A program made the translations under genes and the position numbers. A DNA stretch of 64,000 nt from Deltaproteobacteria bacterium (GTDB taxonomy: Bacteria > Desulfobacterota > Desulfomonilia > UBA1062). Location: NCBI GenBank assembly GCA_029552245.1, contig JAKPDW010000071.1, positions 62,001 through 126,000 of the forward strand, in the 5' to 3' direction. The notes beneath the pieces are model-generated. The model made no database searches. It was not told the origin of the DNA and saw nothing but the letters and a program-made list of their open reading frames with translations. This document shows, piece by piece, positions 1,221 through 38,531 of this stretch. Every line of letters starts with the position of its first letter. Positions within the stretch are counted from its first letter, which is position 1.

Positions 1221-2501
1221 TCACGCCGTGGGCGGGCGCCCCGAGGACCTTCGCGCGTCGATGGTCTCGAGCAGCGCCTCGATCCTCACGAAGGCGGCCT
1301 CCTCGCTGTACTTGCGCTCGTCGGCGTGATCGACGTCTATCATGATGGCGGGCACGCCGAGGGTGTCCCTCACGTGGCGCATCTGGTCCATCTGCATGAC
1401 GGAGTAGACCTTGCAGCTGCGGTTGCTGGCGAAGATCACCCCGTCGATGCCGTTGCGCTCGATGGCCCTTTGCATCGCGCGGAGCCTGAGGTCGAGGCCC
1501 TGCGGGCAGACGGAGAAGTTCTGGAGCCTCGCGAGCCACGCGAGGGGGTCCGTCCCGTCGAAGGGGTATGCATCGATGGACCCTTCCAGCGAACCGATGC
1601 AGTAGGTGTAGCTGGCGGTGGTGATGTTGGCGCCCAGGCCGGCGAGCCTCGAGGACATCTTCCTGAGCTGGTGCCAGGGCGCTATGTTGTCCCACAGGAG
1701 CCGGTACCTCTCGCCGGGCACGGGGTAGACGCCGTCGGCCTCGAGCGACTCGGTCTCGTCCGCGAGCATCCTGTAGTGCTCCACGAGCCTTCTCGTCCCC
1801 CTCGAGGTGAGAATGGGCGCCATGTGCACGAAGGAGTCGAAGGCGGTGATGGGGGAAGGCCTGTGGGACGCGAGCCCTATGAAGCGCTTCCACTCCTTGA
1901 GGGCCTCCGCGGAGAGGCTTACCGCCTGGGCCGCCTTCTCCTCCCTGAAGCGCTGGCCGGAGAGCCTCTCGATGGTGCTGATCAGGTCTTTGAACTGGTC
2001 CCGTATGTAGGAGAAGTTGAGGCCGTTCTGTTCCTCGTAGCAGAAGGGGATGTCGAGCACGAAGTGCGGGGTGCCCCACATCCTGTGGTAGATGTCGAAC
2101 CACTTCACGAGGAGCGAGCAGTTGTTGTTGTTGCTCACGAGCAGGTGTGGCCTGGGCAGGCCGAAGGACGGCGAGTCCCTGCCCCCGTCGAGGACGGTGC
2201 CGATGTCTATGCGGGCGTACGAGCACAGGTCGGCCGAGTACCCCGCCTGCTCGGCCTTGGCGCACTGGAGGGCGCCCACGCCCTTGCCCGCGCTCATGGC
2301 CGCGTGGCTCTCGGGCACGGCGTAGACAACGTCGTCGAACCCTGCGAAGAGCTCGGCGGGCACCACGATGGCTATCCAGACGACGAAGGCGCCGTTGGAG
2401 GCCCTTTGGTGGAGGGTCATGTAGTCCTCGGCGATCATGGCGCTGAGCCTCTTGGCCGATTCGCTCTTCTTCGGTTTGCCTGCAAGCGGAGATTCCACCA
2501 T
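1221..2501 (-). CDS. 2-hydroxyacyl-CoA dehydratase family subunit (HgdB/BcrC-like)
   Basis: A 426-residue protein of the 2-hydroxyglutaryl-CoA dehydratase D-component / benzoyl-CoA reductase family, whose subunits bind [4Fe-4S] clusters and carry out radical-type dehydration or ring reduction. Family features include LCSYAR (about residue 98), SNNNNCS (about residue 128), SYTYCIGSLEGS, and a C-terminal NRSCKVYS followed by a DVDHADERKY segment, with cysteines at the expected cluster positions. Its ATG sits one base past the stop of the upstream gene at 2503, so the two are translationally coupled and probably form one heterodimer. No HgdC/BadF-type activating ATPase lies nearby. The substrate cannot be read from sequence. 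Confidence 0.85.
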   Translation of the reverse strand: MVESPLAGKPKKSESAKRLSAMIAEDYMTLHQRASNGAFVVWIAIVVPAELFAGFDDVVYAVPESHAAMSAGKGVGALQCAKAEQAGYSADLCSYARIDIGTVLDGGRDSPSFGLPRPHLLVSNNNNCSLLVKWFDIYHRMWGTPHFVLDIPFCYEEQNGLNFSYIRDQFKDLISTIERLSGQRFREEKAAQAVSLSAEALKEWKRFIGLASHRPSPITAFDSFVHMAPILTSRGTRRLVEHYRMLADETESLEADGVYPVPGERYRLLWDNIAPWHQLRKMSSRLAGLGANITTASYTYCIGSLEGSIDAYPFDGTDPLAWLARLQNFSVCPQGLDLRLRAMQRAIERNGIDGVIFASNRSCKVYSVMQMDQMRHVRDTLGVPAIMIDVDHADERKYSEEAAFVRIEALLETIDARRSSGRPPTA

Positions 2502-2502
2502 G

Positions 2503-3624
2503 TCAGCCTCCCGTAGACCCGTCTTGCAGCATCTCGGCGAAGGCCTCGATGCGGGTGACGTGTTGTGCCAGGTTTTCCCGGTCCTCGGGCGCGATCTCTA
2601 GGAAGAGCGTGCGGACGCCCTCTCTCTCCATGGCCGCGAGGAGCTGGGGGGCCTCGAAGTACTCGTACTCGCAGAACTTCTCGCCGAACAGGATGAACCC
2701 GCGCGCCCCGGAGGCCTTCGCGCGGGACACCAGGTGGCCCAGCCTGGCGTCGGCGGACGGCAGGAGGGTGCTGCATGGTGGGTGATGGAGGTAGAGTTCC
2801 GTGTAATACGAGTGCGGGTCCGGCCGGGGGCTGACCGATGCGAGGTGGGTGCGTGCCATGGTCGCGAAGTCATCCGCGACGGTCACGAGGTTCGACGAGT
2901 CCATGGCGTCGAGGAGCTCGAGGGGCGGGGCCTGGATGCCGCCCGCCATGACCCTGACCCCCCTTGCATCGCCGGGCAGTCCGCTGCACGACCCCACCAC
3001 CTCCTCGAGCCCGGCGATGTGCTCCGCCACTTCCACGTGGTTGCCGAGCTCGATGATGCGCGCGGCACGGGCGGAGGGTATCCCGCCCCGGGCGCGAAGA
3101 TCCATGACCCCCCTGCACAGCGAGCGCCTCCGCTCGTACAGGGTCGCACTCGCCATGAAGGCATCCCCGGAGAACGATCTTCCCGTGAACTCCTCGAGCG
3201 CCTTCACGAGGCCGCGCAGGCGTTCCTCGAGGTATCGGGCGGCATGCGCCCTGTCCAGGGGGATGGCCGGAAGATGCAGCCGGAACATGGGGATGTGTCC
3301 GCCTCTCGAGTCGAGGGCGCGCGAGAGGATCTCCGGGAGGTTCCTCAGCGTGTCGCATGCGTTGTACATGAAGAGTGCGTCGAACAGGGCGGTGCCGTGC
3401 TCGATGACGAACCCCGTGAGCGCCCTGGCCACGCTGCACGCATAGCCCTGCACGTGGGCGTCGCTCGCCGGGTAGTACCCGCGGCCGTCCCCCAGCCCCC
3501 AGAGCACCACCGGCGTAAGGCCGAACGAGTGGAAGAGCTCGAGCGGCCCGTAGAGGGGGAAGCACCCCACGAGCCTCGACCCTTCAGCCCGATACCGTTT
3601 GAGCGTCTCGAGGATGTCTCCCAC
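2503..3624 (-). CDS. 2-hydroxyacyl-CoA dehydratase family subunit, partner of the 1221-2501 gene
   Basis: A 373-residue second subunit of the same family: an N-terminal VGCFPLYGPLELFHSFG segment, FMYNACDTLRN in the middle, and the C-terminal GFILFGEKFCEYEYFEAPQL segment that in homologues carries a cluster-ligating cysteine. It is the upstream gene of a two-gene operon. The start is GTG (3624-3622) with AGGGAC just upstream. This start region is duplicated: the 28 bases containing the GTG recur 61 bases upstream with two mismatches (see the repeat at 3622-3710). Together the pair likely makes a heterodimeric acyl-CoA-modifying enzyme; the activator must be encoded elsewhere. Confidence 0.82.
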   Translation of the reverse strand: MGDILETLKRYRAEGSRLVGCFPLYGPLELFHSFGLTPVVLWGLGDGRGYYPASDAHVQGYACSVARALTGFVIEHGTALFDALFMYNACDTLRNLPEILSRALDSRGGHIPMFRLHLPAIPLDRAHAARYLEERLRGLVKALEEFTGRSFSGDAFMASATLYERRRSLCRGVMDLRARGGIPSARAARIIELGNHVEVAEHIAGLEEVVGSCSGLPGDARGVRVMAGGIQAPPLELLDAMDSSNLVTVADDFATMARTHLASVSPRPDPHSYYTELYLHHPPCSTLLPSADARLGHLVSRAKASGARGFILFGEKFCEYEYFEAPQLLAAMEREGVRTLFLEIAPEDRENLAQHVTRIEAFAEMLQDGSTGG

Positions 3625-3710
3625 GTGTCCCTACCCGCGATGAAATCATGGTTGATCACGTCGAATGTGATCGTTGCCTTGTCACGTGTCCCTGCCCGCG
3701 AGGAAATCAT
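3622..3710. repeat. Two 28-base direct repeats 61 bases apart
   Basis: CACGTGTCCCTACCCGCGAT... (3622-3649) and its copy at 3683-3710 agree at 26 of 28 bases, separated by 33 bases of unrelated DNA. The first copy holds the GTG start and the ribosome binding site of the dehydratase gene on the minus strand. The second copy carries the same arrangement but is not in frame (offset 61). This is the best-preserved example of the 61-base repeat spacing seen in several spacers of this window. Confidence 0.85.
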
Positions 3711-4083
3711 ACCAGGTGTGGTTCTGTAAGACAATATGTCGAGGATGGCGCCGCTCCCCGGGCTGGCGCACGGCGCTTTCAGCCGTGGCGCCGCGTGTGG
3801 CGGCCCTCTCGCGATCGTCCGCGGGCCTGTCTTGCCCCCGAGAGGCGCGTCGCGGTTCGGCCCGAGCGGCCTCGTGCCCTGGCCTCTCTCCGTTTTCGCC
3901 CGCCCGGTAGGCGTCGGCGCGCCATGGGGCATGGTCGGCAACAGCCCGGGCGGCCTGTCCCCTCGAGCGGTCGGGTTTCACTTGCCGTTTGACACGGGCG
4001 CCTGAAAAGATGGATACACTCATCAGGCACCCCCCGGGTCCCCGGAGACGGGACGCCTGTGGGAGGGCACGAAAGAGACGGGG
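3711..4083. other. Intergenic spacer between divergent operons
   Basis: About 370 bases with no gene that I can support. GC-rich with short self-complementary stretches (for example around 3742-3800, built on GGCGCCGC). It must hold the leader of the dehydratase operon on one side and the promoter of the nifS operon on the other. Confidence 0.5.
3989..4020 (+). promoter_or_regulatory. Candidate promoter of the nifS-nifU-cysE operon
   Basis: A perfect -35 hexamer TTGACA (3989-3994) is followed by GATACA (4013-4018, spacer 18) or TACACT (4015-4020, spacer 20) as possible -10 elements. It lies about 70 bases before the nifS start in an otherwise GC-rich spacer. The -10 match is weak. Confidence 0.4.
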
Positions 4084-4089
4084 TTGCGC

Positions 4090-5277
4090 ATGGAAACGAG
4101 AAGGGTGTACTTCGACAACAACGCCACGACGCCTCTGCACCCCGAGGTGAAGCGGGTGATGGCCGATGCCATGGAGACGTTCGGGAACCCCTCGAGCCTC
4201 CATGCGTACGGCAGAGAGGCGAGGGCGCTCGTGGAGGAGGCCCGGAAGAAGGTCGCCGCGTTCATCGGCGCCGAGCCCGAGGAGATCATGTTCGTGGGCA
4301 GCGGCTCCGAGGGCAACAACACGGTGCTCTCCATCGTCACGTGCCAGGGGCGCCCGTGCTCCATCGGCTCGTTCGGGCCGCGCAACCTCGTGACGACGAA
4401 GATCGAACACCCCTGCATCCTCGAGGCCTCGAAGTGCCTTGCCGAGCGGGGGTTCGGCGTCACGTTCGTGGATGTGGACTCCGACGGGAAGGTCGACCTC
4501 GACCGGCTCGAGGATGCGATCAACGACAGGACGGCCCTGGTCTCGGTGATGATGGCGAACAACGAGATCGGGACGGTCCAGGACATCAAGACCATAGCCC
4601 GCATCTGCCACGACAAGGGCGCCCTCTTCCACACGGACGCAGTCCAGGCGGTGGGCAAGGTGAGGCTGGATGTCAAGGAGCTGGACGTGGACTTCCTCAC
4701 CCTCTCGGGACACAAGATATACGCCCCCAAGGGGATAGGCGCGGTATACGTGAGGAAGGGGGCGCCGTTCTGCCCCTTCATCCGGGGGGGGCACCAGGAG
4801 AGGGGGCGGAGGGCCGGGACCGAGAACACCATCGGGATCGCGGCGCTCGGCAAGGCGGTCGAGCTCAGGGACCTGGAGATGGACGCGGAAGGCGAACGCC
4901 TGCGCGCGATGAAGGAACGGCTGAAGGAAGGCATCGCCGCCGCGATCCCAGACGTGCACTTCGTGGGACACCCCACCGACTGCCTGGCCGGGACCCTGAA
5001 CGTCTCCTTCGAGGGTGCGGAGGGGGAGGCCATCCTCCTGTACCTCGACCTCGCGGGCATCGCGGTGTCGACGGGGTCGGCCTGCGCCTCCGGGTCGCTC
5101 GACCCCTCGCACGTGATCCTCGCCACGGGGCTGAGCCCGGAGTGCGCGCACGGGTCCATACGGATCAGCATGGGGAGGGAGAACACCATGGAGGACGTCG
5201 ACTACTTCCTCGACGTCCTGCCGGGTGTCATTTCCCGCATCAGGAAGATGTCGAGCGCCTACGCGGGGAGGAAGTGA
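4090..5277 (+). CDS. nifS: Cysteine desulfurase, NifS/IscS type
   Basis: A 395-residue PLP enzyme that takes sulfur from L-cysteine and passes it as persulfide to an Fe-S scaffold. It has the family opening VYFDNNATTPLHP, the PLP-lysine motif SGHKIYAPKG (Lys209) and the mobile-loop cysteine in STGSACASGS (Cys332). The following LDPSHV and GSIRISMG segments are typical of the NifS group. The ATG at 4090 has GGGG six bases upstream; an in-frame TTG at 4084 is an alternative. Its TGA overlaps the nifU ATG (TGATG at 5275-5279), so the pair is coupled. With nifU and cysE it forms a cysteine-to-Fe-S operon. Confidence 0.95.
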   Translation: METRRVYFDNNATTPLHPEVKRVMADAMETFGNPSSLHAYGREARALVEEARKKVAAFIGAEPEEIMFVGSGSEGNNTVLSIVTCQGRPCSIGSFGPRNLVTTKIEHPCILEASKCLAERGFGVTFVDVDSDGKVDLDRLEDAINDRTALVSVMMANNEIGTVQDIKTIARICHDKGALFHTDAVQAVGKVRLDVKELDVDFLTLSGHKIYAPKGIGAVYVRKGAPFCPFIRGGHQERGRRAGTENTIGIAALGKAVELRDLEMDAEGERLRAMKERLKEGIAAAIPDVHFVGHPTDCLAGTLNVSFEGAEGEAILLYLDLAGIAVSTGSACASGSLDPSHVILATGLSPECAHGSIRISMGRENTMEDVDYFLDVLPGVISRIRKMSSAYAGRK

Positions 5278-5900
5278 TGGATAAGGTAGGGTGGGTTTAC
5301 TCCGACAAGGTCCTCGATCACTTCATGCACCCGAGGAACATCCTCGAGGACGAACAGGCGTTTCAGGCCGACGGCGTGGGGGTGACCGGAAACGTCAAGT
5401 GCGGCGACCAGATGATCGTGGCGATCAAGGTGGACGCCGAGCGTGGCGTCATCACGGACTGCAAGTGGAAGACCTTCGGGTGCGCGAGCGCCATCGCGAG
5501 CACCTCGATCATGTCGGAGATGGTCAAGGGTATGAGGCTCGAGGATGCGTTCAGGCTGTCGCCCAGGGACATCAACAAGGAGCTGGGCGGTCTGCCAGAG
5601 CACAAGATCCACTGCAGCGTCCTGGGAGACAAGGCGCTGCGCGCGGCCATCAACGACTACTACGAGAAGACCGGCCAGGCCGAGAAGATCCAGAGGGAGG
5701 AGGCGCGCGTGGTCTGCTCGTGCATGAACGTGACCGACCACGAGATCGAGGAGGCGGTGCTGGAAGGCGCGAGGTCGCTCTACGAGGTCCAGGAGAAGAC
5801 GAAGGTGGCGACCGTGTGCGGGGAGTGCACCGAGGAGGTGGAGAGGCTCATCGAGTTCTACACCAACAAGCACTTCTGCGCCACCGAGGGGCGGACGTGA
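5277..5900 (+). CDS. nifU: Fe-S scaffold: IscU-type domain fused to BFD-like [2Fe-2S] domain (NifU-like)
   Basis: A 207-residue scaffold protein. Residues 1-125 form an IscU/NifU-N domain with Cys42 (VKCGDQ, with the conserved Asp44), Cys69 (FGCAS) and Cys113 (HCSVLG), the three assembly-site cysteines. Residues about 148-195 form a Fer2_BFD domain with CSC and, 32 residues later, CGEC. Canonical NifU has a third, Nfu-type C-terminal domain; it is absent here, so this is the short two-domain form. The ATG overlaps the nifS stop. It receives sulfur from NifS and builds clusters for transfer to apo-proteins. Confidence 0.93.
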   Translation: MDKVGWVYSDKVLDHFMHPRNILEDEQAFQADGVGVTGNVKCGDQMIVAIKVDAERGVITDCKWKTFGCASAIASTSIMSEMVKGMRLEDAFRLSPRDINKELGGLPEHKIHCSVLGDKALRAAINDYYEKTGQAEKIQREEARVVCSCMNVTDHEIEEAVLEGARSLYEVQEKTKVATVCGECTEEVERLIEFYTNKHFCATEGRT

Positions 5901-5932
5901 ACTCACCCATGGGACGGAAGGAAGGCGAGGCC

Positions 5933-6886
5933 ATGGAGACGAACCCCGGGGTCGTGAGCGAAGACGCGGACGTGATACGGAAGGTCGTCGAGGAGCTCTG
6001 CAGGCCGGAGTCCTACAGCGAGGTCTACCACAGGCCGACGCTCGAGGGCGTGATGCCCTCCCTGGAGGTCCTCTCCGAGGTGGTGGAACGCCTCCGCATG
6101 GTGCTGTTCCCCGCCTACTTCAGCGACCCGGAGATGACCCCGGCGACCATGCCCTACATCGTGGGCAGCCACCTGGAGAGGGTGGAACGCCTGCTCGCGG
6201 AGCAGATCAAGCGGGGTTTCGGCTTCTTCTGCGAGCAGACGGACAGGGCTTCCTGCATCGAGTGCGACGAGCGCTCGAGGGTTCTCGCGCGGAGGTTCAT
6301 CGTGAAGGTGCCGGAGATCAGGAGGCTGCTCGCCACCGACGTCATGGCCGCCTTCGAGGGGGACCCTGCGGCCAAGAGCACGAGCGAGACGATCTTCTGC
6401 TATCCGAGCATCAAGGCCATGACCAACTACCGCATCGCCCACGAGCTGCATCTTTTGGGCGTGGAGATCATCCCCCGCATCATCACCGAGATGGCCCACT
6501 CTGCCACGGGGATCGACATCCACCCGGGCGCTTCCATCGGGGAACGGTTCTTCATCGACCACGGGACCGGCACGGTCATAGGCGAGACCTGCATCATCGG
6601 CTCCAACGTCAGGCTCTACCAGGGCGTTACGCTCGGCGCGAAGAGCTTCCCCAAGGACGAGGCCGGCAGGCTCGTGAAGGGCATCCCCCGTCATCCCATC
6701 GTGGAGGATGACGTGATCATCTACTCGGGGACCACCATCCTCGGGAGGGTCACGATAGGAAGGGGCTCGGTGATCGGCGGCAACGTGTGGCTGGATCACG
6801 ACGTGGCGCCCTACAGCACGGTCATCCAGGCGGACGGCGCATCCACGGTGGTGGTCCCGTCCGGCAAGGGGGCTTCGATCCCCTAG
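5933..6886 (+). CDS. cysE: Serine O-acetyltransferase (EpsC/SATase type)
   Basis: A 317-residue enzyme that acetylates L-serine with acetyl-CoA to O-acetylserine, the precursor of cysteine. The C-terminal half is a left-handed parallel beta-helix of hexapeptide repeats (DIHPGASIG, FIDHGTGTVIGE, GVTLGAKSF, IVEDDVIIYSGTTILG) that starts near residue 190. The long N-terminal helical region has HELHLLGVEIIPR and MAHSATGIDIHPG, the catalytic His region of the family. The ATG at 5933 is preceded by GGAAGGCGAGG; earlier in-frame codons run into nifU. Its place behind nifS-nifU suggests that cysteine supply is tied to Fe-S assembly. Cysteine synthase is not in the window. Confidence 0.92.
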   Translation: METNPGVVSEDADVIRKVVEELCRPESYSEVYHRPTLEGVMPSLEVLSEVVERLRMVLFPAYFSDPEMTPATMPYIVGSHLERVERLLAEQIKRGFGFFCEQTDRASCIECDERSRVLARRFIVKVPEIRRLLATDVMAAFEGDPAAKSTSETIFCYPSIKAMTNYRIAHELHLLGVEIIPRIITEMAHSATGIDIHPGASIGERFFIDHGTGTVIGETCIIGSNVRLYQGVTLGAKSFPKDEAGRLVKGIPRHPIVEDDVIIYSGTTILGRVTIGRGSVIGGNVWLDHDVAPYSTVIQADGASTVVVPSGKGASIP

Positions 6887-7202
6887 GCACCCGGCAAGAC
6901 GGCCGCCCGCTCTTGACCTGCGGGGATGTTCCCCTCGAGCGCCGCAAGGGGGCGTGCAAAAGACGGCGTCGTCGTCCGCCGAGGACAGAGCTCGTCGGCG
7001 TCCGGTGATGAGCACTCAGGCCCGCGGGCCCTGGGGAAGGCCGGGGACCCCGCCTCTCTTGAGGAGAACCCCTCCACCAGGATCCCGAGCCTCGGTGAAG
7101 ATCCGGATCTTCGCTTCTCTCGAGGGGAGCTTCTCCCTGAGGCCCGCGGGCCCCGGGGAAGACCCCCCCTTCAAGGAAGTGCCCAAGGGCGTTCGGTGCG
7201 CA
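6887..7202. repeat. Spacer with tandem degenerate 61-base units (7018, 7079, 7140)
   Basis: After cysE, about 130 bases show nothing clear. From 7018 the DNA falls into units of exactly 61 bases. Units 1 and 2 (7018-7078, 7079-7139) match at about 38 of 61 positions with no gap, and most differences are transitions. Units 1 and 3 share 22 of their first 24 bases (AGGCCCGCGGGCCC...GGGGAAG), then diverge. The unit opens with the palindrome GGCCCGCGGGCC, and a second inverted stretch (CTCTCTTGAGGAG / CTCTCGAGGGGAG) sits mid-unit. No coding frame is conserved across the units. Confidence 0.75.
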
Positions 7203-11357: not shown

Positions 11358-11785
11358 GGCTCTTACGTCCTTTGGGGCATGTGGTTTCCGCTGGTATCTC
11401 CTTGGATCACCGTTGCTTTATAATAGAAACTTCACGCGTTGTCCCGTGTGAAGTTGGTCGGGGAGGCGGGCTGCTCAGACCCGGACATCGTGACAAAGGC
11501 GTCGAGGCGCAAGGGCGAAAGGGGTGGGTCCTCGCGTCGAGAAAGGGGCCTGCGAAGGTGTGCCCCGGAGAAGAGGGGATGAGCGCGAGAAGGGCGCACG
11601 GCGAGGTCCGAAGCCCTTCGCCCGCACATGCCCGCGGTGGATGTTGCCCCTAGCCAATGATCGAGCCGGCATGGTACAAGTGAAGGCCGAGAGGCGCGCC
11701 TCTTTGTGCCAGCCTTGGGAGTGGATGCGGAACCGGCCGAGGCCGAACCCTGCACAAGGTTCCTGCCGTGAAGGAGGTTGTGAGG
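11358..11785. other. Spacer between divergent genes, with hairpin and AT-rich promoter-like patch
   Basis: About 430 bases without a gene. TATAAT on the plus strand (11419-11424) sits in an AT-rich patch, but no good -35 is at the right distance. It is followed by the hairpin CTTCACGCG-TTGTCC-CGTGTGAAG (11430-11453, one mismatch). It lies upstream of both the kinase (minus) and the methyltransferase (plus), so a bidirectional control region is likely. Confidence 0.5.
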
Positions 11786-12439
11786 ATGAAAGACGGTTAC
11801 CGATTCGTGGGGTTTCAATACGAGTTGACAGGGGCTCTCTACAGCCTGGGACGCATCCCCAGGTGCAAGACCGCCATGCTCAAGCACCTCAAGCCCGGGG
11901 ACAGGGTCCTCGTCGCAGGGGTCGGCCACGGGACCGAGGCCGTGGAGGCGAGCAGGCTCGGTGCGCACGTCACGGCCGTGGACATCTCCGAGACCATGCT
12001 CAAGCACTTCAGGAGGCGCATCGAGCGGGACAGGCCCCCGGTGCCGATCGACGTGGTCCACGACGACATCTTCAACGTGAGGGAAGAGGCCTCCTACGAC
12101 ATGGTGATAGCGAACTTCTTCCTCAATGTCTTCTCCAAGACGCGGGTGAAGGAGGTGGCGGACCACCTGGGCACCCTCGTGAGGCCGGGGGGGCGCTTCG
12201 TGGTCGGGGAGTTCGTGCTGCCCGAGCCCGGCTGGATGGGGGTCATCCAGAGGATCAACTGGTACATCGCGATCTCTTTCTACAGCCTGACCACCGAGGC
12301 GGTCTTCCACCCCGTGTGGGACTACCCTGCCCTGGTCAGGGGCGCGGGATGCGAGATCGAGGAGATAGAATACTTCACCGTCTGCGGGGTGAGGCTCTAC
12401 TGGTCGATCCTCGGGAGGAAGAAGGCCGAGGCGGCCTGA
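11786..12439 (+). CDS. Class I SAM-dependent methyltransferase (paralogue of 37887-38531)
   Basis: A 217-residue Rossmann-fold methyltransferase: motif I VLVAGVGHGTEAVEA (about residue 44), acidic strand-2 end VTAVDISETML, motif II DMVIANFFLNVF and motif III VRPGGRFVVGEFVLP. It opens with YRFVGFQYELTGALYSLGRI, a lead-in shared with the protein at 37887. The C-terminal third (INWYIAISFYSLTTEAVFHPVWDY) is aromatic and may bind a lipid or quinone; that is inference. The ATG at 11786 is chosen because AAGGAGG lies nine bases upstream; a GTG at 11768 is in frame. Substrate unknown. Confidence 0.8.
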   Translation: MKDGYRFVGFQYELTGALYSLGRIPRCKTAMLKHLKPGDRVLVAGVGHGTEAVEASRLGAHVTAVDISETMLKHFRRRIERDRPPVPIDVVHDDIFNVREEASYDMVIANFFLNVFSKTRVKEVADHLGTLVRPGGRFVVGEFVLPEPGWMGVIQRINWYIAISFYSLTTEAVFHPVWDYPALVRGAGCEIEEIEYFTVCGVRLYWSILGRKKAEAA

Positions 12440-13380: not shown

Positions 13381-14355
13381 TCAGGTCACCCTGATGCGGG
13401 GGTCCGCTATGCCGTAACAGATGTCCGCCAGGAGATTGCCGAGCAGGGTGAGCACCGCGCCGATGGTGAGGCTCCCCATGATCATGTTGTAGTCGCGCAT
13501 CATGATGGCCTCGTAGAAGAGCTTCCCCAGCCCTGGGATGGCGAAGATGCTCTCGAATATGACGCTTCCGCCTATGAGCCCGGGGACGGACAGGCCGAGG
13601 ATGGTGATTACGGGTAACAGGGCGTTGCGCATGGCATGCTTGAAGATCACCACGCTCTCGGGCAGGCCCTTGGCCCGGGCGGTGAGGATGTAGTCCTGCC
13701 GTATGATCTCGAGCATGCTGGAACGCATGTAGCGGCTCATGCCCGCGAGCGACCCGAAGGCCGAGACCAGGACCGGCAGCGCGAGGTGTCGGGCGAGGTC
13801 CGCCGCCTTGCCCGCGAAAGACAGGTCGGGGTACCGGGCGGAGTGGATGCCCGAGACGGGCAGCCACCCGAGCCGGACGCCGAAGAGGTCCATGCACACG
13901 AGCGCGAGCCAGAAGCTCGGGATGGAAAACCCCACGAACACCACCACCGTGATGACCCTGTCCAGCAGGCTTGCGCGCGTGAGGGCCGAGACGACCCCGA
14001 GGGGGATCGCGGCCAGGAGGATGATGAGCATGGAGGCGAGGTTGATGGAGATGGTCACGGGGAGCCGCTCTTTTATCTTGTCCCAGACGGGGCGCGCGTC
14101 CGAGCTCATGGACGGCCCGAAGTCGAGGCGGCAGAGGTTCTTCATCCACACGAGGTACTGGACGTGGAGTGGCTTGTCCAGCCCGTAGTGTGCCTTGAGC
14201 TTCTCGATGGCCTCGGGCGTTATGTCGGGGTTCATCTGGGTCTGGATGTCCGTGGGGGATCCGGGTGCGAGGTGGATCACCGCGAAGCACACCAGGGTGA
14301 TGCCTATGAAGGTGGGGACGAGCACGAGCAGGCGCCTGAAGAGGAAACGGACCAC
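13381..14355 (-). CDS. Peptide/nickel-type ABC transporter permease, DppB/OppB family
   Basis: A 324-residue permease with the typical DppB opening ([32 protein letters not shown]), a long periplasmic loop (about residues 35-95) and the EAA-type coupling loop [28 protein letters not shown]. The start is a GTG with GGGAAGG seven bases upstream; the open frame extends further 5' but runs into the solute-binding protein gene. It begins 11 bases after that gene's stop and ends adjacent to the DppC-type ATG, so all three genes are co-transcribed. Confidence 0.9.
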
Positions 14356-14366
14356 CGGCGCCTTCC

Positions 14367-16022
14367 CTACTGCAGGATGGTGTATTTCTGGAGGTGCTTG
14401 GGCACGTACCACTTCTCCAGGTTGTAGGTGATCCCCGCGGGCGCGGGGACGATGCCCTTTATCCGGGAGCTCACGGCAGGCAGGCTGTAGGGCACGTAGA
14501 GGAACACGTAGGGCTGCTGGTCCGCCAGTATCTCCTGGATCCGGTCGTAGCAGCGTTTCCTCTGGGACTCGTCGAAGGTCTGCCTCCCCTTCTCGAGCAG
14601 GGAGTCTACCTCCGCGTCCTTGTACCCCACGAAGTTCAGGCCGCCCTTCTTCGCCTGGCTCGAGTGCCAGACGTTGAACAGGTCGGGGTCCTGGAGGATG
14701 TTCCAGCCGAGGATCACCGCGTCGAAGTTGCCCTTGTCCACGTATTCCTTGAGGAACACGGTCCACTCGATGATGCGGATCCTCACGTCGACGCCCACCG
14801 CCTTGAGCCGTTGCTGGATGATCTGGGCGGTCTTCTCCCTCAGGGGGTTGCCCTGGTTGGTGAGCACGGTCATGCTCAGGGGCTTGCCGTCCTTCTCCAC
14901 GACGCCGTCGCCGTCACGGTCGAGGTAGCCGGCCTCCATCAGGAGGGCGCGGGCGCTGTCCGGGCTGTACGCGAAGTCCTTCACCGAGGGGTTGTACCAC
15001 CGGGTGTCGGGCTTGTAGGGGCCGGTGGCCACCTCTCCCAGGCCCATGAGCACGCCCTTGATGATCTCGCGCTTGTCTATGGCGTGCGCGATGGCCCTGC
15101 GGACGAGCACGTCGTCGAAGGGTTTTCTCTTCAGGTTGAACCCCAGGTACGTGTAGCCGTCCGACAGGTACTTGTACTTGTTGTACTTCGACTCGAAGTC
15201 CGGGGATGAGGTCTGGCGGAGGTACTGGAGCGGGGTGAGCCCCATCATGTCGATGGCGCCCGCCTTGAGCTCGAGGAACTGGGTGTTCTGGTCCGGTATG
15301 ACGCGGTACGTGATGCCCATGAGGTAGGGCATGCCGTCGAAGTAGGTCTCGTTGGCCTTGAGCACGATCTTCTGCCCGGTCTGCCAGCTGACGAACCTGA
15401 AGGGCCCCGTCCCGACCGGGTTCCTGGCGAACGGCGTCTTCGAGATGTCCTGGCCCTTGAGCAGGTGCTCGGGCAGGATCTGGAGGGACCCCCAGCTGAT
15501 GAGCGCCGGGGCCAGGGGCTTGTCGTACTCCACCTCGAAGGTGTACTCGTCGACGATGCGGGCGCTCCTGACGAGCTTGTACTTCTCGGCGTAGGCGGTC
15601 GGTGTGCGGGGGTCCACGATGAGCCTGTAGGTGAACATGACGTCTTTCGCCGTGAACTTTTCCCCGTCGTGCCACAGCACGTCGTTCCTCAGGTGGAACC
15701 GCAGGAGCTTGCCCTCGTTCTCGATGTCCCAGGATCGGGCGAGGTCGCCCACGATGTTGAAGTCCTTGTCGTACTTGACGAGGCCGTTGAAGATGAAGGC
15801 CGCCACCTCGTGGGAGGAGCTGTCGCTCGCGAGCATGGGGATCAGGGTGCTCGCATCGCCGATGGAGGAGAGCACGAGGACGTCGCCGAACGCAGGGGAG
15901 TCGTCCTTCACGCCGCCGGCTGCGGGCCCGGTCGGCTCGGGCTTGTTGTTATTCTCCCGGCCGCATGCTACAATGGCTGCAAGAATCAAAACCAATGCAA
16001 GATATTTCAGGTGCGAGCCCAT
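14367..16022 (-). CDS. Peptide-binding lipoprotein of an ABC transporter (SBP family 5)
   Basis: A 551-residue lipoprotein. The lipobox LAAIVAC puts the lipidated Cys at residue 20. The mature protein is a family 5 extracellular binding protein of the DppA/OppA type: a [24 protein letters not shown] opening, [34 protein letters not shown] and [10 protein letters not shown]. The ATG at 16022 has GAAGG seven bases upstream and gives a normal signal peptide; longer in-frame starts do not. It is the first gene of the operon with the two permeases that follow. The ligand could be oligopeptides, dipeptides or nickel chelates; sequence alone does not decide. Confidence 0.9.
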
Positions 16023-16191: not shown

Positions 16192-19116
16192 ATGAGGATC
16201 TACGCCGACCTGCACATCCACTCCCGCTACTCGAGGGCCACGAGTTCCAGGCTCACCCTGAAGGCACTGGCACACGCGGCGCAGGCAAAGGGCATAGCCG
16301 TGCTCGGCACGGGAGACTTCACCCACCCCGCGTGGCTCTCCGAGATCGAGGAGTCTCTCGTCGAGGCCGAAGGCGGCCTCTACCGCCTCAGGGGGGACCC
16401 GTGCCCCACCCGGTTCATGCTCACCGCGGAGATCAGCACCATCTACAAGCAGGACGGGAAGGTGCGGAAGGTCCACCACCTCGTGGGCGTACCGGGGATC
16501 GAGGCGGCGAGGAGGGTCGCGTCCCGCCTGGCCGTGCTCGGCAACATCCTCTCGGACGGGAGACCCATCTTGGGCATCACCTCCAGGGATCTTGCGGAGA
16601 TCGTGCTGTCCTCGGGTCACGGGGCGTTCGTGGTCCCCGCCCACGTCTGGACCCCGTGGTTCTCCGCACTGGGTTCCAAGAGCGGGTTCGACTCCATCGA
16701 GGAATGCTACCAAGACCTGGCCTCCCACGTCTTCGCGGTGGAGACCGGCCTGTCTTCGGACCCGCCCATGAACTGGATGGTCTCCCGCCTGGACCGCTAC
16801 AGGCTCATTTCGTGCTCGGACGCCCACTCCGAGGACAAGCTCGGGAGGGAGGCGACGGTCTTCGACGTGGACCTCGACTACCACGCCTTTGTGCGGGCCA
16901 TGTCCACGGGCGAGGGCCTGGCGGGGACCGTGGAGTTCTTCCCCGAGGAGGGGAAGTACCACCTGGACGGGCACAGGGAGTGCGGGGTCGTGCTCGAACC
17001 GCACTCGAGCAGGCAGGCGTCCCTCTTGTGCCCGGTCTGCGGCAAGCCCCTCACCATAGGCGTCCTGCACCGCGTGCAGGAACTCGCCGACAGGCCCGAG
17101 GGAGAGGTTCCCCCAGGCGCCAGGCCCTTCACGAGCGTCGTGCCCCTGGCGGAGATCATCTCGGAGATCATGCAGGTGGCCTCGCCCACCAAGAGGGTGA
17201 TGGAAGCCGCATCCAGGGTCTCCTCCGCGCTCGGGGGCGAGCTCCCCCTGCTCGTGGAGGTGCCCTGCGGGGACATCGAGGCGGTCGGCGGGCCGGCACT
17301 GGCGACCGCGATACGGCGCATGAGGGCCGGTGAGGTGATCAAGGAACCTGGGTACGACGGCAGGTTCGGGAAGGTGAGGCTCTTCGCCCAGGCCGACAGG
17401 GACCTCCTCTTCGATCACCGTCTCGATACCGGGCCGGGCAGGGCCAGGCGGGGAAGGCCCCCCCGGAAACCAGCCGTGGAGGATGCCTGCCGGGCCGCCC
17501 AGGGCGCGCCGGTGACAGGCCTGAGCGCGGAACAGCTCGAGGCGGCCGGGTGGGGCGAGGGCCCGCTCGCGGTGATCGCGGGTCCCGGGACGGGAAAGAC
17601 CAGGGTGCTGGTGGAACGCGCCGTGAGGCTGGCGCGAAAGGGCGAAGGCCCCGTGCTCGCCGTCACCTTCACCGTGAGGGCCGCGCGCGAGATAGCCCAG
17701 AGGCTGGAGGAGGGGTGCGGCCGCGACCACGGGGTGGACGTCTGCACCTTCCACTCCCTGGCCGCGAGGATCCTGCGGGAGACCGGGCTGGACTTCCAGG
17801 TCATGGACGAGGGCGAGCTCGTGAGGGTGGTGGAACCGGCGCTGGACGCCGACGCCGGGGCGTGGGTCGAGGACCTCCTCTACCGGCAGGGGACCATGAC
17901 CCCCCTCGACAGGGAGCAGGAAGGCCTGGTGAGGATGCTCAGGGCACAGGGCTGCTTCACGTACGACGGGCTCGTGGACGAGGCTTCCCGCCTCGTCCGG
18001 GCTGGGGCGTTCACGCCCCGGTGGAGACACGTGATGGTCGACGAGTTCCAGGACATCAACCCGGTTCAGCACGAATTCCTGAAAGCGCTCGTGCGGGGGG
18101 CCGCAAGCGTCCTGGTGATCGGCGACCCGAACCAGGCCATCTACGGCTTCAGGGGGAGCAGCCCGGCCGCGTTCGATGATTTCCGAAAGGACATGCCGGG
18201 CGCGCGCACGGTGCACATCCGTGACACGTACCGTTTCGGCAGGCCCATTGCGCTTGCGGGAAACGCCGTGGTCGGCCGGGAGGCGGTGCGCTCGCTCAGA
18301 GACGGCCCCAGGGTGACCCTGGTGCGCACCCCCAGGCCCTGGGAGTTCGTCGCGCGCGAGGCGGAGGCCCTCTCGGGCGGGCTCACGCACGCGGGCGTGC
18401 ACAGGGCCGCAGGCGAGTATCCCCTGAGCTCCATCGCCGTGATCGTCAGGACCAAGAGCCAGGCGCTGTCGGCCCTGAAGGCGCTCGGCGAGGCCGGCAT
18501 CCCCTGCGATACCGCTTACGCGAGGCCCCTGAGCGAGACCCGGGGGGTGGCGGAACGTATCGCCCTGCTCGCGGGGGAGGACGTCACGCCCTACCTCAAG
18601 AAGAGACCAGCCCGCGACGACGAGCTGAAGGCTTTGGCGCGCACTCTCGCCGCACAGGACGGGTCGAGCGTGGCAAGGCGGCTTGCGCGCATGGAGGAGT
18701 CCGGGCTGTTCGACCTTGCGCCGCTGCCGGAGACCCACCCGCTCTACAGCTACGCACTCCTCTTCGGGAGCGACACGCGGGGGTTCATCGATTTCGTCAG
18801 GCTCACGAGGGACGACGCGGCCGTCACCGGGGAGCGGGTGCACGTGATCACGGCGCATGCGGCCAAGGGGCTCGAGTTCGACTGCGTCTTCGTGGCGGGG
18901 CTCTCCCGCGGCGTGTTCCCGCTCAAGGGCTCTGACCCCGTCCAGGAGAGGAACCTCTTCTACGTCGCGCTCACGCGCGCCAGACAACGCCTGTACCTGG
19001 TATGCCCGCACGAGGGCGAGTCGCCGTACATCGGCGGGATCCCCGAAGAAGCGGTCCGCGAGATCGTCGAGAAGGCGAGGAAGCCCGGGTCTGCCCAGCT
19101 GCTCCTGTTCGAGTGA
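16192..19116 (+). CDS. Endonuclease Q-like PHP nuclease fused to UvrD/Rep-family DNA helicase
   Basis: A 974-residue fusion. Residues 1 to about 405 match endonuclease Q, which cleaves 5' of deaminated bases: DLHIHSRYSRATS (metal His8, His10), GTGDFTHPAWL, VPAHVWTPWF, GSKSGFDSIEECYQ, ETGLSSDPPMNW, CSDAHSED, a zinc-finger start at Cys280/Cys283 (CPVCGKPL) and HRVQELADRPEG, then the C-terminal EPGYDGRFGKV. After a Pro/Arg linker, residues about 440-974 form a superfamily 1 helicase: Walker A GPGTGKT (464-470), VMVDEFQDINP (614-624), GDPNQAIYGFRG and, near the end, HAAKGLEFDCVFVAGL and YVALTRARQRLYL. The ATG at 16192 begins the PHP domain. Coupling damage incision with unwinding in one chain would make a one-protein excision machine; that role is inferred. 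Confidence 0.88.
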   Translation: MRIYADLHIHSRYSRATSSRLTLKALAHAAQAKGIAVLGTGDFTHPAWLSEIEESLVEAEGGLYRLRGDPCPTRFMLTAEISTIYKQDGKVRKVHHLVGVPGIEAARRVASRLAVLGNILSDGRPILGITSRDLAEIVLSSGHGAFVVPAHVWTPWFSALGSKSGFDSIEECYQDLASHVFAVETGLSSDPPMNWMVSRLDRYRLISCSDAHSEDKLGREATVFDVDLDYHAFVRAMSTGEGLAGTVEFFPEEGKYHLDGHRECGVVLEPHSSRQASLLCPVCGKPLTIGVLHRVQELADRPEGEVPPGARPFTSVVPLAEIISEIMQVASPTKRVMEAASRVSSALGGELPLLVEVPCGDIEAVGGPALATAIRRMRAGEVIKEPGYDGRFGKVRLFAQADRDLLFDHRLDTGPGRARRGRPPRKPAVEDACRAAQGAPVTGLSAEQLEAAGWGEGPLAVIAGPGTGKTRVLVERAVRLARKGEGPVLAVTFTVRAAREIAQRLEEGCGRDHGVDVCTFHSLAARILRETGLDFQVMDEGELVRVVEPALDADAGAWVEDLLYRQGTMTPLDREQEGLVRMLRAQGCFTYDGLVDEASRLVRAGAFTPRWRHVMVDEFQDINPVQHEFLKALVRGAASVLVIGDPNQAIYGFRGSSPAAFDDFRKDMPGARTVHIRDTYRFGRPIALAGNAVVGREAVRSLRDGPRVTLVRTPRPWEFVAREAEALSGGLTHAGVHRAAGEYPLSSIAVIVRTKSQALSALKALGEAGIPCDTAYARPLSETRGVAERIALLAGEDVTPYLKKRPARDDELKALARTLAAQDGSSVARRLARMEESGLFDLAPLPETHPLYSYALLFGSDTRGFIDFVRLTRDDAAVTGERVHVITAHAAKGLEFDCVFVAGLSRGVFPLKGSDPVQERNLFYVALTRARQRLYLVCPHEGESPYIGGIPEEAVREIVEKARKPGSAQLLLFE

Positions 19117-19143: not shown

Positions 19144-20394
19144 ATGGTCACGACCACGGAGAAGGTAGTCTACATCGTTTCCCTCCTGCTCCTCGTCCTC
19201 ATGTCCGCCTTCTTCTCGGGGACGGAGACGGCCTACATGCGCGTCAACAGGTTCCGCATGAAGTCGCTCGCCGAGAAGGGGAACAGGCGGGCACGGGCGG
19301 TGGAGGAGATCCTCGCGGAGCCGGAGCGGCTCATCAGCACCATCCTCCTCGGCAACAACTTCGTCAACGTCCTCGCCTCCGCGATCGCGACCGCCCTCTT
19401 CATCTCCTTCTTCGGCGAGGAGGGCATCCTGTACGCGACCATCGCCATGACCGTTCTCCTCCTCCTCTTCGGGGAAATCACGCCCAAGACGATCGCCGCC
19501 TACCGGTCCGACATGGTCGCCCTGCTCTTCGGCACGCCGGTGAAGGCCCTGACGGTCGTTCTCAAGCCCTTCGTCCACGTGTTCACCGTTGCCGCGCGCT
19601 GGGTGGTGAGGCTCCTGGGCATGAAGGGACCGGGACACCACGACTTTTCCGAGGAAGACCTGGGGTCGGTCATTGCCATGGGACACCAGGAGGGTTTCCT
19701 GAGCGAGCCCAAGGCGAGGATGCTTTCCGCCATCATGGAGCTCGACGAGGTCCCGGTGCGCAAGGTCATGCTCCCCATAGGGGAGATGGTGTGCGTCCCG
19801 GAGGAGAGCACCTTCGACGGCATCCTCCAGGTCATCGCCACGAGGAGTTTCAGCAGGTACCCCGTGTACCGGGAGACCGCCGACAACATCGTGGGGTACC
19901 TGCACATCCGCGACCTCTGGACCCACCTGGACAGGAGGGACGTCTTCAGGGTGAAGGACTGCATGAGGGAGGCCCACTTCGTCCCGGAGACCACCTCCAT
20001 CTTCACCCAGCTCGTGGTGTTCCAGAACATGCACCTCCACATGGCGTTCGTGGTGGACGAGTACGGGACGGTCAAGGGCGCCATCACGCTCGAGGACATC
20101 ATCGAGGAGATCACGGGGGACATCGCGGACGAGCACGATATCGTGAGGCCAGCGATCGTCCCCGTGAGCCCCACGAGCTTCATCGTGACCGGGAGCATCA
20201 GCCTTCTGGATCTCGGCCGCCACATCGGCCGCCAGTTCCCGGACGAGATCGACACCCTGTCTGGTCTCATCTACCACACCCTCGACCGGATCCCCGAGGA
20301 GGGGGAAACCCTCGTCTACGAGGACATGCGCCTCAAGATCGAGCGGATGCGCGGCAACAGGATCGTCCGCGTGAGGATCACCATGGGCGGTTGA
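19144..20394 (+). CDS. CNNM/CBS-domain membrane protein (HlyC/CorC family)
   Basis: A 416-residue protein with a CNNM (DUF21) membrane domain (residues about 1-180; LLLLVLMSAFFSGTETAYM, LLGNNFVNVLASAIATAL, LLLLFGEITPKTIAAY), a pair of CBS domains (about 200-320; KVMLPIGEMVCVP ... FSRYPVYRETADNIVGYLHIRDLW, FVVDEYGTVKGAITLEDIIEEI-TGDI) and a C-terminal CorC_HlyC domain (about 335-414). Such proteins are linked to Mg2+/Co2+ efflux or membrane homeostasis. It follows the EndoQ-UvrD gene by 27 bases and may be co-transcribed. ATG start. Confidence 0.9.
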   Translation: MVTTTEKVVYIVSLLLLVLMSAFFSGTETAYMRVNRFRMKSLAEKGNRRARAVEEILAEPERLISTILLGNNFVNVLASAIATALFISFFGEEGILYATIAMTVLLLLFGEITPKTIAAYRSDMVALLFGTPVKALTVVLKPFVHVFTVAARWVVRLLGMKGPGHHDFSEEDLGSVIAMGHQEGFLSEPKARMLSAIMELDEVPVRKVMLPIGEMVCVPEESTFDGILQVIATRSFSRYPVYRETADNIVGYLHIRDLWTHLDRRDVFRVKDCMREAHFVPETTSIFTQLVVFQNMHLHMAFVVDEYGTVKGAITLEDIIEEITGDIADEHDIVRPAIVPVSPTSFIVTGSISLLDLGRHIGRQFPDEIDTLSGLIYHTLDRIPEEGETLVYEDMRLKIERMRGNRIVRVRITMGG

Positions 20395-22822: not shown

Positions 22823-24736
22823 TCAGATCAGGGGCGGATACACCACCGTGAACACCACGTCCTCGTAGTCGCTCTCCTGCGGGCTCCCGCTATCGGTGGC
22901 CGTGAAGCGGACGGTGTACGAGCTCCCCACGGGGAAGTCGACGACGTCCCAGGTGAAGGTCTGCGTGGATGCGTCGAAGCTCGCCCCCCTGGGCAGGTTC
23001 GTGGCGGTGTACGTGACCCTGTCGCCGTCCGGGTCAGTCGCCGTGACCACGAAGGAGAACGTCAAGTTGTTGTAGACGGCCCTCCTGCCGATGGGGTCGA
23101 GAACCGGCGGGCGGTTGACGTTCCCGACCGTGATCACCACGTCCTCGGAGTCGGACGTGGTGTAGCCCGCGTGGTCGTCGGGATCGCTCACCGTGAACCT
23201 GAGCCAGTAGTTCCCGTTCGCAGACGGCGTCCAGGAGAACACCCTGTCCGCGAAGGTGTACCCGGAAGGCGCGTTCTTGCCGGGGATGGAGGCGGCCGTG
23301 TACGTGAGTGAGTCGCCGTCTGCGTCCGTGGCGGACACGGTGAACTGGAGCTGCTGGCCGATGGCGCCTCGTTGTGAGCCGATCGGGGACAGCACCGGGT
23401 ATGTGTTGTCCTGAAGCTGGCTGGCGGTGTCGTATACCTGGATCGTGACGTAGGCGGTGTCGCCGAGTTTCGGGTTTCCGCTGTCCGTCACCCTGAAGAG
23501 CACCTTGTACTCGCCCGCGTTCGCGGTACCGGGCTCGCCCCAGACGAAGGTCCGCGTGGAGGGGGTGAAGACGGGGCCGTCGATGTATGAGCCCCACCAG
23601 TCGGTCGGCATCTCGGCGGCGTCGAAGGTGAGGCTGTCCCCGTCCGGGTCCGTCGCGGAGATGGTGAGCCTGTTGGAGACGCCGGTGGCGTAGAAGTGCA
23701 CCGGGCTCGACGGGACGCTGATGACGGGCGGCCTGTTCGTGTTCGTCACGCTGATCGCCACGTCGAGCGTCGAGCTCAGCCCTTCTTCGTCGGTGGCCGA
23801 GAAGCGGGCGGTGTAGTTCCCGCTCTGGGTGTAGCCCGGGGTCCAGGTGAAGACGGCCTTGTCCGAGTCGAAGCTCGCACCTTGCGGGATGGACACCGCC
23901 GCGTAGGTCACCCTCGTCCCTTCGGGGTCGACTGCGTCGACGGTGAAGGAAAGGGTCCTGCCCTCGGCGACGCTCTGCGTCCCCACCTGGTTGAACACAG
24001 GGGCGCCCCCCACCACGATGGTGACGGAAAGCTCCGCGCTCAGGGGCTCCACGGCGTCGTCCACCGCCTGGATGCGCACCGTGTGCGTCCCCGACTGGTA
24101 CTGCGAGGGCAACCAGGTGAAGACCCCGGTCTGCGTGTCGAACTCTGCGCCCGAAGGGAGCGACAGGGCGCTCAAGGCGACCAGGTCGCCGTCCGGGTCG
24201 CTCGCGTGCACGGTGAAGGTCACGAGCGTGCCGTATGCGGCGCTGATGGGGGCGATCTGCTCGAAGACGGGCGGCGAGTTGACGGGCAGGGGGGTGATGG
24301 TCCCCGCGTCGTTGACCCTGCCTGGGACCACGTCGAAAGACCTGCTCGTACCCCGGTATTGAACCCTGCCGTCCACGTCCAAGAGCTCGACGGTGACGGT
24401 GTAGCCGCTTCCGGCCTCGACGCCCCCGATGACGCCCTCCCCGGTCGTGCACGGCCAGGGGCCGCCTGAGGCGACCGCCCTCGTGCCTGCGTTGACCGTG
24501 GCCCTGACCGTCTGGATCCCGGCACCCGTGCAGTCGAACTGGGCCGCGCGGGTCACCCCGGTTGCAGGCGGTGAGATCGAGAAGGCGACATCGCCCGTGC
24601 CCGAATGCCTTTCCGAGGGGCTGCACGAGAAGGCCGCCACGATGAGCGCGCACAAGGCGCAGGCGAGCGCGCGGCCGAGGGTCGTGCCCGGGCGGGGGCG
24701 GGTTTCTCTGTGGGTGCGGGCCGAGGGATGTTCCAT
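22823..24736 (-). CDS. Surface lipoprotein with five putative Ig-like (He_PIG/cadherin-like) repeats
   Basis: A 637-residue lipoprotein: a lipobox (VAAFSC, Cys38) preceded by a basic N-terminus, a unique beta domain to about residue 150, then five repeats of about 95 residues starting with NSPPVFEQI, GAPVFNQV, NRPPVISV, YPVLSPIG and NRPPVLDPI. Each carries the D-x-DGD-x-[LV]-T calcium-type motif (SDPDGD, TDPDGD, TDADGD) and a GxFxWxP core. Such repeats make extended Ca2+-stabilised stalks. GGAGGGC precedes the ATG. It is the middle gene of the operon with a CsgG/FlgO-like protein and a barrel protein, so a surface fibre or adhesin is likely; no specific ligand can be named. Confidence 0.82.
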   Translation of the reverse strand: MEHPSARTHRETRPRPGTTLGRALACALCALIVAAFSCSPSERHSGTGDVAFSISPPATGVTRAAQFDCTGAGIQTVRATVNAGTRAVASGGPWPCTTGEGVIGGVEAGSGYTVTVELLDVDGRVQYRGTSRSFDVVPGRVNDAGTITPLPVNSPPVFEQIAPISAAYGTLVTFTVHASDPDGDLVALSALSLPSGAEFDTQTGVFTWLPSQYQSGTHTVRIQAVDDAVEPLSAELSVTIVVGGAPVFNQVGTQSVAEGRTLSFTVDAVDPEGTRVTYAAVSIPQGASFDSDKAVFTWTPGYTQSGNYTARFSATDEEGLSSTLDVAISVTNTNRPPVISVPSSPVHFYATGVSNRLTISATDPDGDSLTFDAAEMPTDWWGSYIDGPVFTPSTRTFVWGEPGTANAGEYKVLFRVTDSGNPKLGDTAYVTIQVYDTASQLQDNTYPVLSPIGSQRGAIGQQLQFTVSATDADGDSLTYTAASIPGKNAPSGYTFADRVFSWTPSANGNYWLRFTVSDPDDHAGYTTSDSEDVVITVGNVNRPPVLDPIGRRAVYNNLTFSFVVTATDPDGDRVTYTATNLPRGASFDASTQTFTWDVVDFPVGSSYTVRFTATDSGSPQESDYEDVVFTVVYPPLI

Positions 24737-37886: not shown

Positions 37887-38531
37887 ATGCAGGACAGGTA
37901 CAGGTTCATAGGCCCTCTCTATGACCTGCTCGCTGCGATCTTCAGCCTCGGGAAGATCGACAGGTGCAAGTGCGCCCACCACGACCGCATAGCGAGCGGC
38001 ACGAAGGTGCTGTTTGCAGGCGTGGGGCAGGGGGTCGACGCCATCGAGGCGGCAAAAAGGGGCGGCGATGTCACGGTGGTCGACATCTCTCAGACCATGC
38101 TCTCCATATTCAAGAAGAGGACGGACAAGATGGGATTGGCGAGTCCCATCAGGATCGTCCACTCCGACATCTTCGCCTTCGACGAGTACGAACGGTACGA
38201 CATGGTGTTTGCGAACTTCTTCCTCAACGTCTTTCCCCTGGACACGGTGCTCAGGCTCGAGAGGCACCTCGCGAGCCTCGCGAAACCCGGGGGGTGCGTG
38301 GTGGTGGGTGACTTCTGCCTGCCCTCGGGTGGGGCTGCAGCCAGGTTCTTCCAGAACCTCTATTGGTACATAGCCGACGTGGTCTTCTACCTCGCGGCGC
38401 GTAACGCCATACACCCCGTGTACGACTACTGCACCCATCTGAAGGACCTGGGCCTTGCCATAGAGCAAATCAAGTACTTCCGCGTCCTCTTCGACGACAG
38501 GTACTACTCCATCCTCGCAAGGAAACCCTGA
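37887..38531 (+). CDS. Class I SAM-dependent methyltransferase (paralogue of 11786-12439)
   Basis: A 214-residue methyltransferase with the same layout as the one at 11786: opening YRFIGPLYDLLAAIFSLGKIDRCKC, motif I VLFAGVGQGVDAIEAAK, VTVVDISQTML, DMVFANFFLNVF and KPGGCVVVGDFCLP, then an aromatic segment NLYWYIADVVFYLAARNAIHPVYDY. The shared FFLNVF and the aromatic tail mark the two as one subfamily. The ATG has GGGAGGTG upstream. It precedes the HMG-CoA reductase gene on the same strand, but 750 bases away, so shared transcription is doubtful. Substrate unknown; a hydrophobic one is a guess. Confidence 0.8.
   Translation: MQDRYRFIGPLYDLLAAIFSLGKIDRCKCAHHDRIASGTKVLFAGVGQGVDAIEAAKRGGDVTVVDISQTMLSIFKKRTDKMGLASPIRIVHSDIFAFDEYERYDMVFANFFLNVFPLDTVLRLERHLASLAKPGGCVVVGDFCLPSGGAAARFFQNLYWYIADVVFYLAARNAIHPVYDYCTHLKDLGLAIEQIKYFRVLFDDRYYSILARKP

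Follow-up and report, generated by a model that had tools for sequence, protein, structure and literature searches.

The superfamily 1A (SF1A) helicases UvrD, PcrA and Rep track 3' to 5' and serve in strand displacement from nicks in nucleotide excision repair and mismatch repair. Endonuclease Q (EndoQ) nicks 5' of a lesion and leaves a 3'-OH and a 5'-phosphate, according to the account of its discoverers (PMC4357722). In PfuEndoQ, E76, H84 and H139 are required for zinc and cutting, and H139, G169 and S171 exclude T and A (review PMC8307549). A C-terminal PIP box lets TkoEndoQ bind PCNA, which stimulates the enzyme (PMC4858679). For the events after the nick, the discoverers gave models only, in which strand displacement or a helicase removes the damaged strand (PMC4357722, Fig. 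10), and the natural fusion described here is a single protein on which they can be tested.

We analyzed a 64,000-nucleotide stretch of DNA from a Deltaproteobacteria bacterium (hereafter the window), in which one open reading frame joins an EndoQ to a UvrD-family helicase (Table 1). Residues 3–398 matched PfuEndoQ (5zb8; phmmer, E = 4.4e-47), with 33.6% identity over 375 aligned positions. In an AlphaFold model based on an alignment of 71 fusions (mean pLDDT 90.5, pTM 0.57), the EndoQ half superposed on 5zb8_B with a Z of 50.9 (2.3 Å, 385 residues) and on the dU-bound structure 7k30 with a TMt of 0.89. The PHP ligands D6, H8, H10, E80, H95, H151, E184, D210 and H212 were present (PfuEndoQ counterparts: D6, H8, H10, E76, H84, H139, E167, D192 and H194, respectively) and invariant in the 71 fusions, except for H8 (70/71); the first-pass annotation had asked whether most homologues lose these ligands, and they do not. 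The residues of the active site and uracil/hypoxanthine pocket of PfuEndoQ (E76, H84, H139, G169 and S171) correspond to E80, H95, H151, G186 and S188, all invariant in the 71 fusions, and the EPGYDG motif is also present.

Table 1. Features of the EndoQ-UvrD fusion in the window (positions are those of the window)
Feature	Position	Strand	Basis
EndoQ-UvrD fusion ORF	16192-19116	+	uninterrupted ATG-to-stop frame, 974 aa
Endonuclease Q half (aa 1-408): PHP domain, zinc ribbon, C-terminal EPGYDG region	16192..17415	+	
Zinc-ribbon ligands H261, C264, C280, C283	16972..17040	+	alignment to PfuEndoQ C249/C252/C268/C271
Flexible linker (aa 409-440)	17416..17511	+	pLDDT below 50
SF1A UvrD/PcrA/Rep-type helicase, compact (aa 441-960)	17512..19071	+	Pfam PF00580/PF13361
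Putative beta-clamp-binding motif QLLLF (aa 969-973), C-terminus	19096..19110	+	motif enrichment, disordered tail

The C-terminal half matched Pfam UvrD-helicase (1.3e-43) and UvrD_C, as well as the solved PcrA, UvrD and Rep proteins, and the modeled half superposed on Rep (1uaa; Z 38.9, 2.0 Å over 407 residues) and also on PcrA and UvrD. When Walker A/B and motifs III, IV, V and VI were checked, K469, T470, D617, E618, Q620, D645, Q648, R654, R681, R753, H889, K892, G893 and E895 were invariant in the 71 fusions, and R929 was kept in 70 of them. The scores against the UvrD (TIGR01075), PcrA (TIGR01073) and Rep (TIGR01074) models were 170, 181.6 and 140.4 bits, compared with cut-offs of 1144, 911 and 951. 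Sequence matches, conserved sites and fold all bear out the earlier reading of the domains as EndoQ and a UvrD-family helicase. Its wording, a complete EndoQ joined in frame to a full superfamily 1 helicase, stands for the fusion, the ligands and the EPGYDG motif, but "full" is slightly generous because UvrD and Rep are longer than this helicase (approximately 530 aa) by approximately 100 residues, though it has all motifs. Between the halves, residues 409–440 were the sole long stretch predicted to be disordered apart from the tail that follows the helicase and ends in AQLLLFE; the relative placement of the two halves is not fixed in the model because its pTM is 0.57. The EndoQ-to-helicase spacing is also variable among homologues (median 46, maximum 117).

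Our scan of 84,980 species genomes gave no fewer than 551 relatives, and we fetched the 80 best. All 80 were single open frames with both halves. The first six phyla among them were Thermodesulfobacteriota, Myxococcota, Actinomycetota, Bacillota, Bacteroidota and Planctomycetota, and the further ones were Verrucomicrobiota, Acidobacteriota, Pseudomonadota, Fibrobacterota, Nitrospinota and Latescibacterota; the fetched relatives were titled as bacteria only, archaea having been covered as named controls. The search for other PHP-UvrD fusions that the first-pass annotation had proposed was thus successful in about a dozen bacterial phyla, and the rarity that it had implied gave way to a widespread architecture. 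The fusion is not unique to the window, and an assembly or frame artefact, or chance, is ruled out because all of the best 80 relatives are one-frame fusions and the complete fusion is present in most of the relatives searched within the window's family (f1). The EndoQ-helicase pairing is real and ancient, and it extends across many bacterial phyla.

Within the window's own phylum, EndoQ was found in 131 of 198 genomes, 51 of them in frames of at least 870 aa, and the helicase was confirmed in the long frames that were fetched. A second phylum, which contains the Lachnospiraceae, had EndoQ in 74 of 149 genomes (approximately 20 in long frames). By its tree neighbours, the window's protein lies near Syntrophaceae. 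In a congener genome (G574), two contigs (C97 and C33) each carry a full-length EndoQ-UvrD fusion, which reflects either duplication or contamination (4%).

In three genomes, EndoQ and a related helicase are separate, adjacent genes. In one of them (G125, locus L116), the EndoQ stop codon at 3578–3580 is followed after 2 nt by the ATG of a complete helicase gene at 3583; in the other two (G185, L166; G135, L168), the genes are consecutive with short gaps. In a mixture-model tree, these three unfused helicases branch at the base of the fused-helicase group, and the fused helicases together with these unfused ones form a single group, from which seven canonical UvrD/PcrA proteins, the UvrD of the window's genome among them, are separate (support 98). 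Chance adjacency is ruled out because the helicases of the split pairs group with the fused ones, away from canonical UvrD. Either the operon came before the fusion or the split pairs are old fissions; in both cases, the halves have stayed linked even where they are not fused. The three adjacent unfused pairs are independent evidence that the halves work together.

Two further loci, L156 and L163, were rejected as ancestral split pairs because in each of them a single stop interrupts what is otherwise one frame with both halves, and because they are nested in fused clades; we counted them as recent breaks of a fused gene. The linker of L163 is unlike that of its fused sister L180: in the genome that carries L163 (G120; 1679–3055 and 98–1675), it holds the stop and an NPPSPPFDKGG stretch that is absent from the fused sister (G091), and the gene looks as if it was split by a small repeat insertion in the linker.

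Scoring with a profile built from the EndoQ half of the fusions separated two types of EndoQ, a long type that scored above approximately 480 bits and may be fused or solo, and a short type that scored 96–164 bits and is solo only. Of 105 fusions, 69 had the strict clamp-type pattern Q[LM]x[LM][FL] in their final 20 residues, where shuffling gave a mean of 0.3 and a maximum of 3; the counts were 21 of 49 for solo long-type EndoQs and 0 of 32 for short-type ones. A looser clamp-type pattern occurred in 91 of 107 fusions. Furthermore, a second clamp-type motif was present just after the EndoQ half in 35 of 107 fusions, compared with 4.8 expected. In the window's protein, QLLLF lies in a predicted disordered tail, as looked for by sequence in a sliding-clamp client, and its Q969 is kept in 67 of the 71 fusions. 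The motif has a parallel in the PCNA box of archaeal EndoQ. The idea of a clamp motif is not new, because beta-clamp motifs in bacterial EndoQ homologues were already noted in 2016 (PMC4858679); its placement behind a helicase is new, as far as could be found.

These observations lead us to regard the fusion as probably a clamp-tethered bifunctional excision-repair enzyme, which would cut on the 5' side of a deaminated base before displacing the damaged strand for resynthesis. We infer the following for its substrate, for the polarity of its helicase and how that helicase loads at the nick, and for clamp binding and the role in vivo. The EndoQ half would flip out the lesion, be it uracil, hypoxanthine or an abasic site, and cut directly on its 5' side, so that the lesion strand bears a 3'-OH and a 5'-phosphate. 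The tethered helicase, of presumed 3'-to-5' polarity, would be loaded at this nick on the intact strand and move downstream, displacing the damaged strand as a 5' flap. Since tracking 3' to 5' on the intact strand would peel the lesion-bearing 5' end and keep the 3'-OH free for a clamp-bound polymerase, a polymerase on the same sliding clamp, held via the C-terminal QLLLF, could extend the 3'-OH, after which a flap nuclease would trim and a ligase would seal. Having the helicase act after the nick and move downstream of it would agree with the known polarity of both enzymes, and such a nick-then-unwind scheme would also fit the linked unfused pairs and the clamp motif. Fusion, clamp motif and linked unfused pairs together point to strand displacement coupled with clamp-bound resynthesis.

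The helicase could instead act first, as a scanning or opening motor that feeds single-stranded or transcribed DNA to EndoQ and surveys forks, R-loops and gaps. The predicted flexible linker would set no geometric limit on the order of action, EndoQ is active on both duplex and single-stranded DNA (review PMC8307549), and the clamp-type motif suggests work near replication. However, EndoQ alone cuts and bends duplex DNA, so opening is not needed (review PMC8307549), and the existence of an unfused EndoQ clade points the same way: in the EndoQ tree, 31 solo long-type EndoQs of the window's phylum form a separate clade, the remaining long-type EndoQs being mostly fused. No helicase was found in the available flanks of this 31-member clade, and the helicase therefore looks dispensable for EndoQ function, a point that also counts against the nick-then-unwind reading. 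We consider a helicase-first order unlikely. The same tree shows approximately 11 changes of fused/unfused state among long-type EndoQs, and hence repeated fusion or fission. One genome (G212, L158) carries a fused (3552–7199) and a solo (14253–15587) long-type EndoQ approximately 7 kb apart on opposite strands, and the two are sister sequences in the tree.

A changed substrate was also considered, in which the fused EndoQ nicks abasic sites, ribonucleotides, mismatches or flaps and the pair works like MutL plus UvrD. The long and short EndoQ types lie on opposite sides of one long branch (support 100), and the second phylum's proteins that score high against TIGR00375 belong to the short type. 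The window's protein scored 155 bits over nearly the whole TIGR00375 model (an NCBIfam hypothetical equivalog), far under the cut-off of 326.6, which was reached in none of the 198 genomes of its own phylum. Because of this score, we place the fused EndoQ in a sister subfamily of TIGR00375, outside the equivalog. The putative zinc ribbon is a CHCC variant of the CCCC ribbon of PfuEndoQ: C249 is replaced by H261 in 70 of the 71 fusions, and the other three cysteines are kept. Histidine is able to bind zinc. While the long branch, the H261 variant and the low score would suit a shift in substrate, every pocket residue by which PfuEndoQ keeps out T and A is retained, as is the EndoQ fold in the AlphaFold model, and we find such a shift rather improbable.

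The neighbours of the fusion are genes for SBP_bac_5 and an OppC-like permease (peptide transporter) and a CNNM/CorC gene, and they are constant in the window's family. The CNNM/CorC-type membrane gene lies directly downstream (19144–20394), 4 to approximately 110 bases from the fusion across the family. No neighbour conserved across phyla was found among mechanically called ORFs, in which large clusters were superfamilies or local synteny. Elsewhere in the window are two similar small SAM methyltransferases 26 kb apart (11768–12439 and 37887–38528), both of which begin YRF(V/I)G..Y-L......SLG-I-RCK, and a large protein of repeated Ig/cadherin-like domains (He_PIG; 22823–24736), probably a surface lipoprotein. 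No match to the fusion was found among 72,556 plasmids at E <= 1e-30, nor in phage records and viral-contig collections at the thresholds used. Neither an adjacent GajA (OLD nuclease) gene nor a defence context was found at the locus, where only generic GajB helicase matches occurred. A mobile or defence gene is rejected on the absence of plasmid, phage and viral matches at these thresholds and the ordinary, stable neighbours.

An anti-phage nuclease-helicase of Gabija-like plan, attacking uracil-containing or otherwise modified phage DNA, is accordingly very unlikely: PADLOC GajB profiles match the helicase half, bacterial EndoQs may act in antiviral defence and B. subtilis EndoQ is resistant to Ugi, an inhibitor from phage (review PMC8307549), and EndoQ is patchy in Actinomycetota (3 of 119 sampled genomes besides the seed), but the GajB matches are generic to UvrD helicases and the fusion is near-universal in whole families.

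The first-pass annotation had proposed the fusion as an alternative excision route for deaminated bases. As a general rule, this did not hold. The window's genome has two matches to the uracil-DNA glycosylase (UDG) superfamily, a separate canonical UvrD, an AddA-like helicase and a weak EndoV match; given its UDG-superfamily matches, canonical UvrD and weak EndoV match, it has no obvious need of a further route. General replacement of UDG by the fusion is rejected for the phylum, where UDG occurred in 174 of 198 genomes and EndoQ and UDG were mostly found together, some genomes being without both.

The proposal fits best in the UDG-poor family f41, which groups with named Desulfovibrionaceae by tree neighbours. 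Here EndoQ was present in 93 of 99 genomes (80 of 81 good ones), nearly always in fusion-length frames, and UDG was present in 34 of 99 (30 of 81 good ones). UDG occurred in 5 of 7 genomes without intact EndoQ and in 29 of the 92 others (Fisher p = 0.045, a value that ignores kinship and rests on few losses), an inverse pattern that is suggestive only. Within this family, the EndoQ-helicase system has decayed in genus g182: one genome (G424; L225, 2910–4169) has EndoQ alone, without helicase or UDG, another (G397; L224, 3020–4150) has a broken EndoQ, no helicase nearby and a UDG, and a third (G442) lacks EndoQ and has UDG. We tentatively suggest that in UDG-poor lineages such as this Desulfovibrionaceae-like family, the clamp-bound EndoQ-UvrD protein could be the main, glycosylase-free means of removing deaminated bases, by nicking and unwinding within one polypeptide. 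This would offer bacteria without UDG a means to hold cytosine deamination in check.

EndoQ emerges as a widespread bacterial enzyme with two subfamilies, and the fusion, judged from its sequence, may be a one-protein repair route for deaminated DNA. We found no paper on a fusion of EndoQ or PHP with UvrD among 5.39 million open-access papers; sequence databases surely hold such proteins under generic names. The accessible part of the 2015 paper shows a Desulfovibrio homologue and makes no mention there of a fused helicase (PMC4357722).

Gabija (GajA-GajB) likewise pairs a nuclease with a compact UvrD-like helicase, whereas the nuclease here is PHP/EndoQ rather than OLD/TOPRIM, and no defence context or mobility was seen. 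With UvrD, PcrA and Rep, the fused helicase shares all helicase motifs and the 1A/2A fold; it differs in forming a separate clade, in being shorter by approximately 100 residues, and in carrying its own nuclease, predicted to be lesion-specific. The known EndoQs (PfuEndoQ, TkoEndoQ, MacEndoQ and Bacillus pumilus EndoQ) resemble it in their whole fold, PHP ligands, U/Hx pocket, three of the four zinc-ribbon cysteines and C-terminal clamp-type motif, whereas the fused half is of the long type (approximately 408 aa), has a CHCC ribbon, is joined to a helicase and bears its clamp motif after that helicase. Finally, the repair models of Shiraishi et al. 2015 (PMC4357722, Fig. 10) share with our proposal a 5' nick followed by strand displacement or helicase removal; in those drawings, the helicase is an archaeal activity of its own, left unnamed, whereas here nuclease and helicase are one chain.
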